Position numbers and translations under genes: made by a program | In this document: piece after piece, positions 34,044-49,085 of the stretch | Position numbering within the stretch: the first letter of the stretch is position 1 | How the letters are laid out: the number at the start of each line of letters is the position of its first letter | Source: Gemmatimonadales bacterium | GTDB taxonomy: Bacteria; Gemmatimonadota; Gemmatimonadetes; Longimicrobiales; Gaopeijiaceae | DNA length: 64,000 nucleotides | NCBI GenBank assembly: GCA_007692665.1 | Contig: REBP01000134.1 | Coordinates: 1-64,000 of the forward strand | Direction of reading: 5' to 3' | Notes under the pieces: model-generated | Database searches by the model: none | What the model was told of the DNA's origin: nothing | What the model saw: the letters and a program-made list of their open reading frames with translations, nothing else

Positions 34044-34822
34044 TGAACCCCCTCGCGTCCCCTGCTGCGGCCGAACGGCCGGAGCGCATTCGCACCTACT
34101 TCGAGGGGCGGGCGGAAAACTGGATCCGCCTGACTTCGGATGCGCCGGTTTCCGGCGTGCGGGCGCGTGTGCGGGCGGGGCGCGAGCAGATGTCCGAAAC
34201 CCTCCTGGGGTGGCTGGAGCGCCCCGCGGCCGAGGGGCCGGGCGAGGGTGCAGCGGTGGTTCCGCGAACGGTCCTCGACGCCGGCTGTGGTCCCGGCGAG
34301 ATCTCGCTCCGACTGGCCGTCCGCGGGTTCCGGGTCACGGGGGTGGAGCTTGCCCCGTCGCTGGCCGCGGCGGCCCGGGAGCGGGTCCGGGCAGCGGGCG
34401 CCGCCGACCGGATCGAGATCCGCGAGGGCGATGCTACCCGCCCCGAGGGCGGACCCTGGGACCATGTGCTCGTCATGGACGTCCTCTTCCACTACCCGCT
34501 GGACGAAGCGGTGGAGGCCGTGGCGAGGCTGGCCGCGCAGGCCCGCCAAAGCCTGGTCTTCACGCTGGCACCGCGCACGCCGCTCCTTGCAGCGCTCCGG
34601 GCGGTGGGCGGTCTCTTTCCACGGAAGGACCGGGCGCCCACGCTGCACCCGGTGCCGGTGGATGCCTTCGTCGAGCGGGCCCTGGCCCACCCGACGCTGG
34701 CTGCCGGGCAGTGGAGCCTGGGGCGCCAGCGTTTCGTGCGCTCGGGCGTCTACTTCTCCCATGCGGTCGAGTTCGTCCGGGGCGATGCGGGCGTGGCCCC
34801 CGCGGGCGAGGGGCCATCATGA
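34043..34822 (+). CDS. bchM: Magnesium protoporphyrin IX O-methyltransferase
   Basis: YFEGRAENWIRLTSDAPVSGVRARVRAGREQM, VLDAGCGPGEISLRLAVRGFRVTGVELAPS; ATGA overlap with bchL. Confidence 0.93.
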
Positions 34823-36258
34823 AGGTGACCATGGCCGCCCGGACCGCCCGCATGCTGAACGCGCTGGGCACAAAGTACCTGCCCTTCGCCGACGCGGCCT
34901 CGGCGGAGCTTCCCCTGGGGCGCCTGCTGCGGCTTGCGCTCTTCCAGGTCTCGGTGGGCATGTCGCTCACCCTCCTCGTGGGGACGCTGAACCGCGTGAT
35001 GATCGTGGAGCTCGGCGTGGCGGCCCTCGTGGTGTCGGCCATGATCGCGCTCCCGCTCCTGTTCGGGCCGTTCCGCGCCCTCATCGGGTTCCGGTCCGAC
35101 GTCCACCGGTCGGCCTTCGGCTGGCGGCGGGTTCCCTACCTGTGGTTCGGCACCCTGATCCAGTTCGGCGGCTTCGCCATCATGCCCTTCGCGCTCCTCC
35201 TCCTGGGGGGGGACCACAGCGCGCCCATGTGGACCGGCACGGCAGGGGCCGCCCTGGCCTTCCTGATGGTGGGGGCCGGGGCCCATACGGTGCAGACGGC
35301 AGGGCTCGCCCTGGCCACCGATCTGGCCACCCCGGAGCAGCGCCCTCGGGTCGTTGCACTCCTTTACCTCTTCCTGCTGGCCGGCATGATCGTGGGCGGC
35401 GTGGCGTATGCCTGGCTGCTGGCGGAGTTCTCGCCGCTCCGCCTCATCCAGGTCATCCAGGGGGCGGCTGTCGTCACGGTGGTCCTGAACGGCATCGCGC
35501 TCTGGAAGCAGGAGGCCCGGGACCGGGTTCGGGCGGCCCTGCCCGCCGAAAAGGCGCGGTTCTCCGACGCCTGGCGCGGCTTCACCGAGGGGGGGCGTGC
35601 CACCAGGCTCCTGGTGGCCGTGGGGCTCGGCGCTGCCGGGTTCTCCATGCAGGACGTGCTCCTCGAGCCCTTTGGAGGGGAAGTGCTGGGCATGAGTGTC
35701 GGCGGGACTTCGCTATTGACGGCCCTCACCGCCGGTGGCGCCGTGTGCGCCTTCGCCCTGGCCGCACGTCGACTCGAGCGGGGCACGGACGCCTGCCGGC
35801 TGGCGGCGCTTGGTGCGCTCATCGGCGTCGGAGCGTTCGTCGCCATCCTGCTGTCCGGCGTCATGGGCTCGCCGCTGGCCCTCCAGGCCGGGGCCGTGCT
35901 CATCGGGCTCGGCGGGGGCTTCTTCCTCGTGGGCACGCTCACGGCGGCCATGGACCTCGAGATGTCCGAAAGGAACGGGCTCGCCATGGGAGCCTGGGGG
36001 GCGGTACAGGCCACCGCCATGGGGGTGGCCGTCATCATCGGCGGCGTCATTCGCGACGGTGCGGCGGCACTCGCCGCCGCCGGACGCCTGGGGCCCGGGT
36101 TCGAGGGACCCACCGCCGGCTACATGCTTGTTTTCCAGATCGAGATCGTGGCGCTCTTCCTGGCCATGGCCGTCCTCGGGCCCCTGGTGGCCCCCGGTCG
36201 CACCATTCCCGCCGCACCGGAGCGACGCCGCTTCGGCCTGGCAGAACTCCCGGGATGA
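34819..36258 (+). CDS. lhaA: PucC-family (LhaA-like) light-harvesting assembly protein
   Basis: GTLNRVMIVELGVAALVVSAMIALPLLFGPFRALIGFRSDVHRSAFGWRRVPYLW; between bchM and puhA. Confidence 0.9.
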   Translation: MKVTMAARTARMLNALGTKYLPFADAASAELPLGRLLRLALFQVSVGMSLTLLVGTLNRVMIVELGVAALVVSAMIALPLLFGPFRALIGFRSDVHRSAFGWRRVPYLWFGTLIQFGGFAIMPFALLLLGGDHSAPMWTGTAGAALAFLMVGAGAHTVQTAGLALATDLATPEQRPRVVALLYLFLLAGMIVGGVAYAWLLAEFSPLRLIQVIQGAAVVTVVLNGIALWKQEARDRVRAALPAEKARFSDAWRGFTEGGRATRLLVAVGLGAAGFSMQDVLLEPFGGEVLGMSVGGTSLLTALTAGGAVCAFALAARRLERGTDACRLAALGALIGVGAFVAILLSGVMGSPLALQAGAVLIGLGGGFFLVGTLTAAMDLEMSERNGLAMGAWGAVQATAMGVAVIIGGVIRDGAAALAAAGRLGPGFEGPTAGYMLVFQIEIVALFLAMAVLGPLVAPGRTIPAAPERRRFGLAELPG

Positions 36259-36303: not shown

Positions 36304-36576
36304 GTGGAGTACATCGACTTTGCGCAGATCACCGTCTACCTCTTCTGGTTTTTCTTTGCCGGACTGGTGATCTACCTGCGCCGCGAGGACAAGCGGGAGG
36401 GCTACCCTCTCGAGAGCGACCGGAGGGGCGTGACGGTGCAGGGATGGCCGGCGACCCCCGAGGGAACGACGGTTCGCTCGACCCGCCTCAAGCATCCCGC
36501 CCTTGACCCGACGGACCCGGCGAACTACATGCCCGAGACCCAGACCGAACAGAACCAGAACCGGAGGGAGACCTGA
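36304..36576 (+). CDS. puhA: Reaction centre H subunit, N-terminal membrane-spanning part (separate ORF)
   Basis: [38 protein letters not shown] = PuhA N-terminus; GTG start with GGAGGA RBS; ends TGA 36574-36576. Confidence 0.9.
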
Positions 36577-37106
36577 TGAACATCCCCGCCCGCCCCGTCG
36601 CTGGACATCCGGGGGCCGCCCTCGAGCCCACCGGAGACCCGATGAAGGACGGTATCGGCGCCGCGGCGTGGGCCACGGACCGGGCCGACCGCCCGGATCT
36701 GACCCACGACGGACGACTGCGCCTGCAGCCCATGAGCACACTCATCGGGTGGAGCATCGAGGGCCGCGATCCCGATCCGCGGGGCATGCGGGTCGTCGGC
36801 GCCGACGGTGTCGTCGCCGGAACTGTCACGGATCTGTGGGTGGACCTGGCCGAGCCGCAGCTCCGGTTCCTGGCCACCGAGCTCCCCGGCGACCTGGGGA
36901 CGGTCCTGGTTCCCATGGGCTTCGTGAAGATCCGGCGCCGCGAGGGCGAGGCGAGGGTGCAGGCGCTCCATGGCCGGCACTTCGCCGACATTCCCCGGCC
37001 GAAGCTGGCAGACCGGATCACCCTCCTGGAGGAGGACCGGATCTACGGGTACTTTGCCGGCGGGTACCGCTATGCGGATCCGTCGCGCCTCGAACCGTTG
37101 TTCTGA
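36576..37106 (+). CDS. puhA: Reaction centre H subunit, cytoplasmic PRC-barrel part (separate ORF)
   Basis: GAALEPTGDPMKDGIGAAAWATDRADRPDLTHDG...DPDPRGMRVVGADGVVAGTVTDLWVDLAEPQLRFL = PuhA C-terminal domain; own GGAGGGAG RBS and TGATG coupling. Confidence 0.9.
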   Translation: MNIPARPVAGHPGAALEPTGDPMKDGIGAAAWATDRADRPDLTHDGRLRLQPMSTLIGWSIEGRDPDPRGMRVVGADGVVAGTVTDLWVDLAEPQLRFLATELPGDLGTVLVPMGFVKIRRREGEARVQALHGRHFADIPRPKLADRITLLEEDRIYGYFAGGYRYADPSRLEPLF

Positions 37107-37107
37107 C

Positions 37108-37761
37108 ATGGGAACCCCGTCCGCACCGGGGACCCCATCGGAAATGGCTCGGGTCCGGATCGAAGGGGTGGAGGAAGCACTCCCCCTCGGCGAATCCCTC
37201 CTCTGGGAGGGTCGTCCCGATCTGAAGACCCTGGCCTTCCGGGTCCTGTATCTTCGAGTTCTCCTCGGCTACTGGGCGCTGGTGGCCGTCGGTTTCCTGC
37301 TGGCCGGCGCCCTCGGCGGCCGGACCACCGGAAACCTCGCGGCTGACCTGGTCTGGCTGCTCGTCGTGGCAGCCGTCGGTTCAGCCATCATCTTCGGCTT
37401 CGCCGCAGCGGTCCGGGGGAGCACCACGTATGCCCTGACCGATCGGCGGGTCGTGATCCGTCTGGGCGTGGCCTTTCCATCGGTGCTGAATCTTCCGCTG
37501 CATCGGATCGGCTCCGTCGATGTCCGCCGCACGGGGCGGGACGCGGAGGGAAGAGATGTTGGAGACGTGGTCCTCACGCCCGTGGGCGACGACCGCGTCG
37601 GGTGGCTCTACCTGTGGCCCCATGTCAAGCCGTGGGCATGGCGTGACCCGATTCCGGCGTTCCGCGCGGTCCCGGACGTGGCCTCCGCCGGCGAAGCCGT
37701 GGCTCGCCAGGTCAGGCGCCGCCTTGAAGAAGTCGCTCGCGACGAGGAGGTCGCCTCATGA
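37108..37761 (+). CDS. puhB: Photosynthetic complex assembly protein PuhB (PH-domain)
   Basis: GESLLWEGRPDLKTLAFRVLYLR, TTYALTDRRVVIRLGVAFPSVLNLPLHRIGSVDVR; position after puhA. Confidence 0.92.
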   Translation: MGTPSAPGTPSEMARVRIEGVEEALPLGESLLWEGRPDLKTLAFRVLYLRVLLGYWALVAVGFLLAGALGGRTTGNLAADLVWLLVVAAVGSAIIFGFAAAVRGSTTYALTDRRVVIRLGVAFPSVLNLPLHRIGSVDVRRTGRDAEGRDVGDVVLTPVGDDRVGWLYLWPHVKPWAWRDPIPAFRAVPDVASAGEAVARQVRRRLEEVARDEEVAS

Positions 37762-38279
37762 GTGTCGTCCGATTCGAGGGCGAGGATCTCGAGAAGGACC
37801 TGATCCCGCCTGTTGCCATCAAGGCCACGGCAGTCTTTCTTGCCCTGGTCCTGATTCTCGCCACCGTGGCGCGCCTTACCGGGGTGGGGGCACTCGAGGC
37901 GGTGACGGACCGAACCCCGGTGGCGGAGCGAACCCTGGCCTTCGTCGCTGAACCGGGTGACGGACCCGTGGACCTCATGGACGGGGAGACCGGCGCCCTG
38001 ATCCGACACCTCGCCGCCGGCGAGGGAGGCTTCCTCCGGGGGGCCGTCCGTCCCCTCTACCGGGAGCGGAATCGGGCCGGTGGAGACCCCGCCGCGCCCT
38101 GGGTACTCACCCGGTGGTCCGATGGTGCCCTCACGCTGACGGACCCCCTGACCGGACTCGTGGTAGACCTCTACGCCTTCGGCCCCACCAACGCCGGGGC
38201 CTTCGCCGAACTCCTGCCTCCTCCCGTGAACCGGGCGGGCGCGATCCGCACCACCTCCCCTGGAGACGATTCGCAATGA
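37758..38279 (+). CDS. puhC: Photosynthetic complex assembly protein PuhC
   Basis: Single N-terminal TM, PPVAIKATAVFLALVLILATVARL; position after puhB. Confidence 0.87.
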   Translation: MSVVRFEGEDLEKDLIPPVAIKATAVFLALVLILATVARLTGVGALEAVTDRTPVAERTLAFVAEPGDGPVDLMDGETGALIRHLAAGEGGFLRGAVRPLYRERNRAGGDPAAPWVLTRWSDGALTLTDPLTGLVVDLYAFGPTNAGAFAELLPPPVNRAGAIRTTSPGDDSQ

Positions 38280-39808: not shown

Positions 39809-41506
39809 TCAGCGCCGGAGGACCCGCCCCGCGCGCACGTCGAGGTACTCTCCGTTCTCGACGGTGACGACCCCGTTCACCACCACCCAGAGAATTCCGT
39901 CCGGGTACTGGTGGGGGTCCTGGAAGGTGCTGCGGTCGATGACGGTGGCCGGATCGAAGATCACGAGGTCCGCCATGCTCCCTTCGACGATGCGACCGCG
40001 GTCCGCGAGCCCCAGGCGGTCGGCGGGGAGCGAGGTCATCTTGCGCACGGCCTCGGGAAGGGAGAGCACCCCTCGCTCCCGGACGTACTCGCCGAGGACC
40101 CGGGGGAAGGTGCCGTACCATCGGGGGTGGGGGTGGCCGTCACCGGGAACCACGAGCCGCCCATCCGATGCGATGGCGGTCATCGGGTGCTGCATGATCC
40201 GCTCCACGTCGTCCTCGTGGAGGGCGTGGTAGATCGCGCTGACCCCGCCGCGCCGCACGGCCTCCACCACGAGCTCGGCACCGGTTTCCATCGTGCGGGG
40301 GAGGCCGTCCCGGTCCGCCCAGTCGCCCAGGGATCCGCCCTCCAGCGAGGGATCCCAGGTGACCCTCGCCAGCTGCACGCGGTCCAGGTCGTTCCCCCCG
40401 CGGTCGTTCACCAGGTTGTCGCGGATCCCGGCCAGGATCGAGTCCGCCAGGGCCGGATCGTCCATGCGGGCGAGAAACCCGCTGTTCCCGCCGCCCATGG
40501 CCCATTCCGGAATGAGGATGGTGATGCCGGTGTAGGTCGCCGTGTAGGGGTACTGGTCCAGGATGACATCGGTGCCGGCAGCCCGGGCCGAATCCACCAT
40601 GGCGAGGGTGCGCTCGGAGGCGCCCCACATGGGGTAGCCCACCACCTTGTGATGGGTCAGGACCACCGGGATCCCGGCCCGCCGCCCGATCTCGAGGGCC
40701 TCGCCCACGCCCTCCATGAGCCCCCGCCCCTCGTCGCGGAGATGGGAGGTGTAGATCCCCCCCGACCGGGCGGCCACCTCGGAGAGGGCCACCACCTCGT
40801 CGATGTCCGAGAAGGCGCCGGGAATGTACCGGAGGCCCGTGGAGAGCCCGAACGCCCCGTCCTCCATGGCCTGGGCCACCAGCGACCTCATGCGTTCCAG
40901 TTCGTCGGCGGTGGGTGCGCGGTCGTCGAGCCCAGTGACCTCCCGGCGGATGGAGTTGTGGCCGGCCAGGAAGGCCACGTTCATCCCCACCCCCAGCACC
41001 TCGGCGGAGTCCAGATAGGGCGCGAGGGGGAGGGGTGCCGTGCCGTCGGGGCCGCCGAGGGCGGTGGTCACCCCCTGCCGCACGTGGCTCTCGGCACCGG
41101 GGAGACGGAGAAGTGGGTCCAGGTGCGCATGGAGGTCGATGAACCCGGGGGCAACGACGAGCCCGCGGCCATCCACCTCCCTCGCTCCCGCCCCTTCCAC
41201 GATCCCCCCGGTGGCCACCCGCACGATCCGGTCGCCCGTGACGCCCAGGTCGGCGCGGAACGCCGCCCCGCCGGTCCCGTCCAGGACCTGCGCGCCCCGG
41301 ATCACCAGGTCGAAGGGACCCGGGTCCGGCTGTTCCGCCGCCGAACACCCGGTGGCGACGGCGGGCAGAAGGAGGGCGAGGCCCACGAAGAGGGCAGCGC
41401 GGGCGGAGGTCGCGGGGCGGGCGGAGCGCACGGGGCAGGCGGAGCGCAGGGGGCGGGCTACGCGTGCGGGGCGGGCTACGCGTGCGGGGCGGGGCGATTG
41501 GGGCAC
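39809..41506 (-). CDS. N-acyl-D-amino-acid deacylase / amidohydrolase, probable lipoprotein
   Basis: DLVIRGAQVLDGTGGAAFRADLGVTGDRI, GFIDLHAHLDPLL, YTSHLRDEG, ADLVIFDPATV; signal LFVGLALLLPAVATGC; start uncertain. Confidence 0.85.
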   Translation of the reverse strand: MPQSPRPARVARPARVARPLRSACPVRSARPATSARAALFVGLALLLPAVATGCSAAEQPDPGPFDLVIRGAQVLDGTGGAAFRADLGVTGDRIVRVATGGIVEGAGAREVDGRGLVVAPGFIDLHAHLDPLLRLPGAESHVRQGVTTALGGPDGTAPLPLAPYLDSAEVLGVGMNVAFLAGHNSIRREVTGLDDRAPTADELERMRSLVAQAMEDGAFGLSTGLRYIPGAFSDIDEVVALSEVAARSGGIYTSHLRDEGRGLMEGVGEALEIGRRAGIPVVLTHHKVVGYPMWGASERTLAMVDSARAAGTDVILDQYPYTATYTGITILIPEWAMGGGNSGFLARMDDPALADSILAGIRDNLVNDRGGNDLDRVQLARVTWDPSLEGGSLGDWADRDGLPRTMETGAELVVEAVRRGGVSAIYHALHEDDVERIMQHPMTAIASDGRLVVPGDGHPHPRWYGTFPRVLGEYVRERGVLSLPEAVRKMTSLPADRLGLADRGRIVEGSMADLVIFDPATVIDRSTFQDPHQYPDGILWVVVNGVVTVENGEYLDVRAGRVLRR

Positions 41507-41620
41507 GGATGACTCCGGGTCGGGGGAAGGCAACAGATTGCTCTCCCCCGGCACGCCCCGCAAGCCGGCCGTTCCCCCCGGCACCCCTCCGGCGCGTCCC
41601 GTTGTCTCCCCGTCTCGCCG

Positions 41621-41737
41621 TCCCGATGCCGGGTTTGACCGTCCCGATGCCGGGTTTGACCGTTCCGATGCCGGGTTTGACCGTCCCGACGCGGGGTTTG
41701 GCCGTCCCGATGCCGGGTTTGACCGTCCCGATGCCGA
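41621..41737. repeat. 21-bp tandem repeat (tcccgatgccgggtttgaccg), 5 copies plus partial sixth
   Basis: Copies begin at 41621, 41642, 41663, 41684, 41705, 41726(partial). Confidence 0.95.
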
Positions 41738-48719: not shown

Positions 48720-48908
48720 TCAGTACCCGGGGGGCAGCGGCGTCATGTCGACGACCGCGCCGGCCGTGGCTCCGTCTCCGCCGTCGAGCCAGTTGAACCG
48801 CTCGGTGGAGAGGAGGATGAAGTGGATGGTGAACGCCAGGACGCCCAGGAATGCGAAGAGGGCGATGAGGGTCCGCCTGGGATCGAAAATCAACCAGATC
48901 CGATGCAT
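48720..48908 (-). CDS. pufA: Light-harvesting 1 alpha polypeptide
   Basis: [41 protein letters not shown]. Confidence 0.95.
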
Positions 48909-48935: not shown

Positions 48936-49085
48936 TCAGCCCCAGGGACGCCACATCCAGGCGAGTGCATGTGCGATGATCGCGACGACCGTGAAGCCGA
49001 TGAAGGACATGAGGAAGACCCCATGAAATTCCTTGGCTTCGTTCTCGGTCAGTCCTGACAGGCTCCCCGTTCTTTCATGTTGCAT
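48936..49085 (-). CDS. pufB: Light-harvesting 1 beta polypeptide (absent from supplied ORF track)
   Basis: Manual translation [49 protein letters not shown]; conserved Glu-rich head, His in TM. Confidence 0.95.

Follow-up and report, generated by a model that had tools for sequence, protein, structure and literature searches.

The reaction centers of G. phototrophica (7O0U) and G. groenlandica (9H19 and 9H22), solved by cryo-EM, contain two H chains (PMC12817894), and a 2023 review likewise describes the G. phototrophica reaction center as having a split H subunit (PMC10214105). The division of puhA into puhA1 and puhA2 was reported in 2025 to be specific to Gemmatimonadota; comparing Gemmatimonas with Pseudogemmatithrix, the same account dates the split and pufA2 together, as relatively recent and preceding the divergence of these genera (PMC12817894). 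In the Pseudomonadota (R. sphaeroides, Blc. viridis, and Tch. tepidum), by contrast, PuhA is a single chain. The type II reaction center of Roseiflexus castenholzii is also non-canonical with respect to H, but there the subunit is absent rather than divided (PMC10214105).

The locus considered here lies in a 64,000-nucleotide stretch of Gemmatimonadota DNA, hereafter the window. It carries the same two genes as Gemmatimonas, and its break likewise falls between the membrane part and the cytoplasmic part (7O0U–7O0X, 9H19, and 9H22; PMC12817894 and PMC10214105), although its sequence is only a distant relative of the Gemmatimonas Ht and Hc chains. The original prediction of a divided H subunit added that a two-polypeptide H may have been noted in Gemmatimonas, and this is borne out both in print (PMC12817894 and PMC10214105) and by the separate chains in the PDB. 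The split H subunit is thus an already described feature, real but not new; we found no published description of it for the window's family.

Two reading frames for one H subunit

The transmembrane N-terminal half of subunit H, puhA1 (RC-Ht), occupies positions 36304–36576 of the plus strand and encodes 90 amino acids from a GTG start, a detail missing from the original prediction. The cytoplasmic PRC-barrel half, puhA2 (RC-Hc), follows at 36576–37106 on the same strand, with 176 amino acids and an ATG start. The two are joined by the stop/start sequence TGATG (36574–36578, plus strand), in which puhA1, ending in QNQNRRET, shares with puhA2 a single base, the A. A Shine-Dalgarno-like sequence, CGGAGGGAG, resembling GGAGG, lies 5' of the puhA2 ATG within the 3' end of puhA1 (36562–36570, plus strand). 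Its predicted pairing with the 16S tail is −10.6 kcal/mol, compared with a mean of −5.0 kcal/mol for the other 20-mers in puhA1 and puhA2 of the window, which places the puhA2 site in the lower 5%. The coordinates, the frames, and the separate ribosome-binding site of the second frame are therefore all as originally predicted.

Both halves match the H-subunit families, each in its own part. Positions 5–64 of Pfam PRCH, the membrane-helix part, fall in the first ORF (E 7.9e-21), and positions 82–133 fall in the second (E 1.2e-13), which also matches Pfam PRC, the cytoplasmic PRC-barrel (E 4.1e-12). The NCBIfam model for puhA, TIGR01150, has 262 positions, of which 6–73 are found in the first ORF and 87–261 in the second; the second ORF scores 207.5 bits, above the cut-off of 200. 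The gap between 73 and 87 places the break in the linker between the membrane part and the cytoplasmic domain, in line with the original prediction. Judged by these matches, the puhA family is nearly whole across the two ORFs, with almost nothing lost apart from the linker. Over nearly its whole length the window pair is homologous to the single-chain PuhA of Pseudomonadota, with which it also has a gene neighborhood in common; the 'DGxTVxAP' linker segment of the latter is missing or replaced at the Gemmatimonadota break. PuhA in its canonical form is a single continuous polypeptide. Because a stop instead divides the window's H subunit into two ORFs that lie in different frames, it is filed as the split form of PuhA and not as the canonical one.

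The two ORFs are also homologous to the two solved chains. The best PDB match of the first is 9h19_H, 'reaction centre Ht sub unit' (E 1.7e-19), with 9h22_H ('reaction centre Ht') and 7o0u_H1 also among its nearest solved relatives. The second matches 9h22_K (E 3.9e-40), 7o0u_H2 'RC-Hc' (E 4.4e-40), and 9h19_K, and ordinary fused H subunits in the PDB match it equally well or better than the Gemmatimonas Hc chains. With solved homologues at E 1e-40, the fold is already given.

Substitution rates for the window against L032, its nearest relative (80% identical), show that Ht and Hc are both under purifying selection. For residues 1–52 of Ht, dN is 0.10 and dS is 0.55, and for Hc the values are 0.14 and 0.87. 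The tail of Ht (residues 53–90), with dN of 0.26 and dS of 0.95, is loose and poorly conserved. Both halves of the subunit are nonetheless retained. The length of Ht differs among relatives, from 90 residues in the window and mostly 65–67 in the second family (f5) to as many as 162 in L116. Pro/Ala-rich low-complexity sequence lengthens the tail in L116 (genome G824), L018, and L023, giving Ht chains of 116–162 residues. In Hc, D90 and E93 of the window correspond to AspH170 and GluH173 of R. sphaeroides, and both are kept, as in the Pseudomonadota. These two residues are known from proton-path work in R. sphaeroides. The positions of HisH126 and HisH128 are not conserved; among fused relatives, most of those that are not of the Rhodobacter type do not conserve them either.

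Distribution of the split and kinds of join

The occurrence of puhA was surveyed in two phyla, Gemmatimonadota and Pseudomonadota. It was found in 45 of 399 Gemmatimonadota genomes, each with either two matches or one match containing a stop. Searches by family gave puhA in 14 of 126 genomes of the window's family, in 1 of 103 of a third family, and, over a cut-off of 180, in 43 genomes of the second family. Among these 58 puhA-bearing genomes from three families not one has an uninterrupted gene, whereas in the Pseudomonadota (399 genomes) puhA is one continuous polypeptide in every one of the 31 that match above the cut-off; the genomes behind both counts are phylogenetically non-independent. 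The loci closest to the window come from Gemmatimonadota MAGs, which, with the PufLM clade described below, places the host in a phototrophic lineage. Two bins, G854 (C127 and C383; L142 and L143) and G389 (C380 and C323), hold two split puhA sets each, either as two gene clusters or as a mixed bin. The Azospirillaceae MAG G399 (L041 and C271) has puhA twice, uninterrupted both times, along with two pufLM sets; of all fused sequences in the scan, the one most closely related to the window Hc is encoded by one of these puhA genes.

This distribution bears directly on whether a sequencing or assembly indel could have divided a normal single puhA. The assembly behind the window is a draft in 258 contigs, and one indel could be enough to make the split. 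The same break, however, is present in all 58 genomes, including the single-contig G039, G074, and G130, the joins differ in kind from genome to genome, and a second start with a ribosome-binding site is in place. An indel therefore has practically no chance of being the explanation, and a frameshift error, which the original prediction had argued against, is ruled out by the independent genomes.

The joins were read at base level in 40 distinct pairs and 12 further stretches. TGATG, the join of the window, occurs in 26 of the 40 pairs, the window included, and is the commonest join in the second family as well. Another eight pairs have a four-base overlap (ATGA or GTGA), one has a 14-base gap, and five have a same-frame stop, one codon, and then ATG (two with TAG, two with TGA, and one with TAA). 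One of the 12 further stretches, G171, has a 19-base gap and the third relative frame. Predicted pairing before the second start averages −8.8 kcal/mol over the 40 pairs, against −4.3 kcal/mol, and a few pairs (e.g. L009 and L018) are without a Shine-Dalgarno-like site. The place of the break, on the other hand, is constant: alignment to the PuhA of other phototrophic Gemmatimonadota, which had been proposed as a check, puts it at one alignment position throughout the split sequences. What is conserved is the pair of ORFs and the position of the break, not the kind of join.

A fused H could also be made alongside a short Ht by programmed −1 frameshifting, or by readthrough of the stop. Hc does lie in the −1 frame in most relatives, including the window, where no stop interrupts it over the 23 codons preceding the ATG. 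This frame relation is not kept, however, being 0 in five pairs (with TAA, TAG, or TGA) and +1 in G171. The window has no slippery heptamer, and the three present among the 40 pairs are chance-like. In addition, the solved Gemmatimonas complexes hold separate chains. Since every relative frame and every stop codon is represented among the joins, and a slippery site is lacking, the conserved mechanism cannot be frameshifting or readthrough, and production of a fused H by either route is very improbable.

We are close to certain that the window ORFs are separate genes, puhA1 for Ht and puhA2 for Hc, of the split H subunit of phototrophic Gemmatimonadota. A single mRNA of a putative lhaA-puhA1-puhA2-puhB-puhC operon would be read. 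Ribosomes would finish puhA1 at the TGA and begin puhA2 at the overlapping ATG, for which the Shine-Dalgarno sequence within puhA1 would serve; translational coupling is suggested by the overlap together with the ribosome-binding site. Ht would be the membrane-spanning chain. Hc, by homology, would dock against L and M on their cytoplasmic side and against the foot of Ht, a position from which it would shield the quinones and line the proton path as the fused subunit does. Published structures of relatives contain the two chains assembled in the complex; for the window, translation, assembly, and function are inferred.

Neighboring genes and the puf operon

Directly upstream of puhA1 is lhaA, encoding a PucC-family antenna assembly protein (34822–36258, plus strand; Pfam PUCC, E 1.5e-132). 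The assembly protein genes puhB (37108–37761, plus strand; NF040894 puhB_PGC, E 1.4e-43), directly downstream of puhA2, and puhC (37758–38279, plus strand; TIGR03054, E 5.4e-39) follow. The order bchL-bchM-lhaA-[puhA1-puhA2]-puhB-puhC-orf-acsF is the one found in purple bacteria whose clusters have one puhA. Elsewhere in the window, a long ORF on the minus strand, adjoining the photosynthesis genes, holds in its 5' region a 21-bp tandem repeat (41618–41736; 5.7 copies, 91% matches) as well as two 18-bp arrays (41399–41493).

The puf operon of the window differs from that of Gemmatimonas in having one pufA and no gene for the outer ring. On the minus strand, pufB, for LH1 beta (48936–49085; an ORF with a PF00556 match), is followed by pufA, the sole LH1 alpha gene (48720–48908; an ORF matching PF00556, with LH1 alpha chains as its closest PDB chains). 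Only 27 bp separate the two, so there is no pufA2 between them, and no further LHC match beyond pufB and pufA was found in the window's genome, which is 95% complete. The arrangement expected of a double-ring complex (RC-dLH), pufA2 beside pufB and pufA1, is absent from the window, so that a gene for the outer LHh ring known from Gemmatimonas is lacking. Genomes of genus g60, e.g. G039, have pufB, a second alpha gene, and then pufA1. In some Gemmatimonadota a second pufBA-like pair is found on another contig (G093:C271, G127:C330, G152:C37, G136:C1, and G397:C214), and these extra pairs possibly encode a separate LH2-type antenna.

Age and number of the splits

In the PuhA tree, the split sequences form one main clade, with genus g93, whose joins are in frame, apart from it among the fused Pseudomonadota sequences. 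This placement raises the idea that the split arose twice within Gemmatimonadota, once in the main lineage and once in g93. Two independent splits at the same place would, if true, mean that a two-piece H had been selected for and was not a frozen accident. Holding all split PuhA as one clade was not rejected, however (p-AU 0.33; 0.11 with the trimmed set), the break in g93 falls at the same column, and the end of Ht is similar (-EH or -xH). A tree of PufL and PufM, moreover, sampled 15 Gemmatimonadota and 14 Pseudomonadota; all 15, with g93 among them, form a single clade apart from the Pseudomonadota (support 96/95). An independent second split is made unlikely by this PufLM grouping, and we give a double origin little credence. 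Because the PufL and PufM tree groups all sampled Gemmatimonadota, the simplest and best supported reading of the sequences is one acquisition and one ancient split near its base.

Lineages whose puf operon has no pufA2, the window among them, also have the split. As the window has a split H with pufB-pufA only, an outer antenna ring is not required for the split. It is probably older than that ring, and so than the double ring, and probably as old as the photosynthesis gene cluster of the phylum; pufA2 may have been lost later in the window's family. As a discovery, the split H subunit of the window is of little weight because both the PDB and the literature already contain the feature. What is new here is the distribution and age of the split: it is present in every puhA-bearing Gemmatimonadota lineage found, including those with a single pufA in the puf operon, and the survey thereby refines the published dating.
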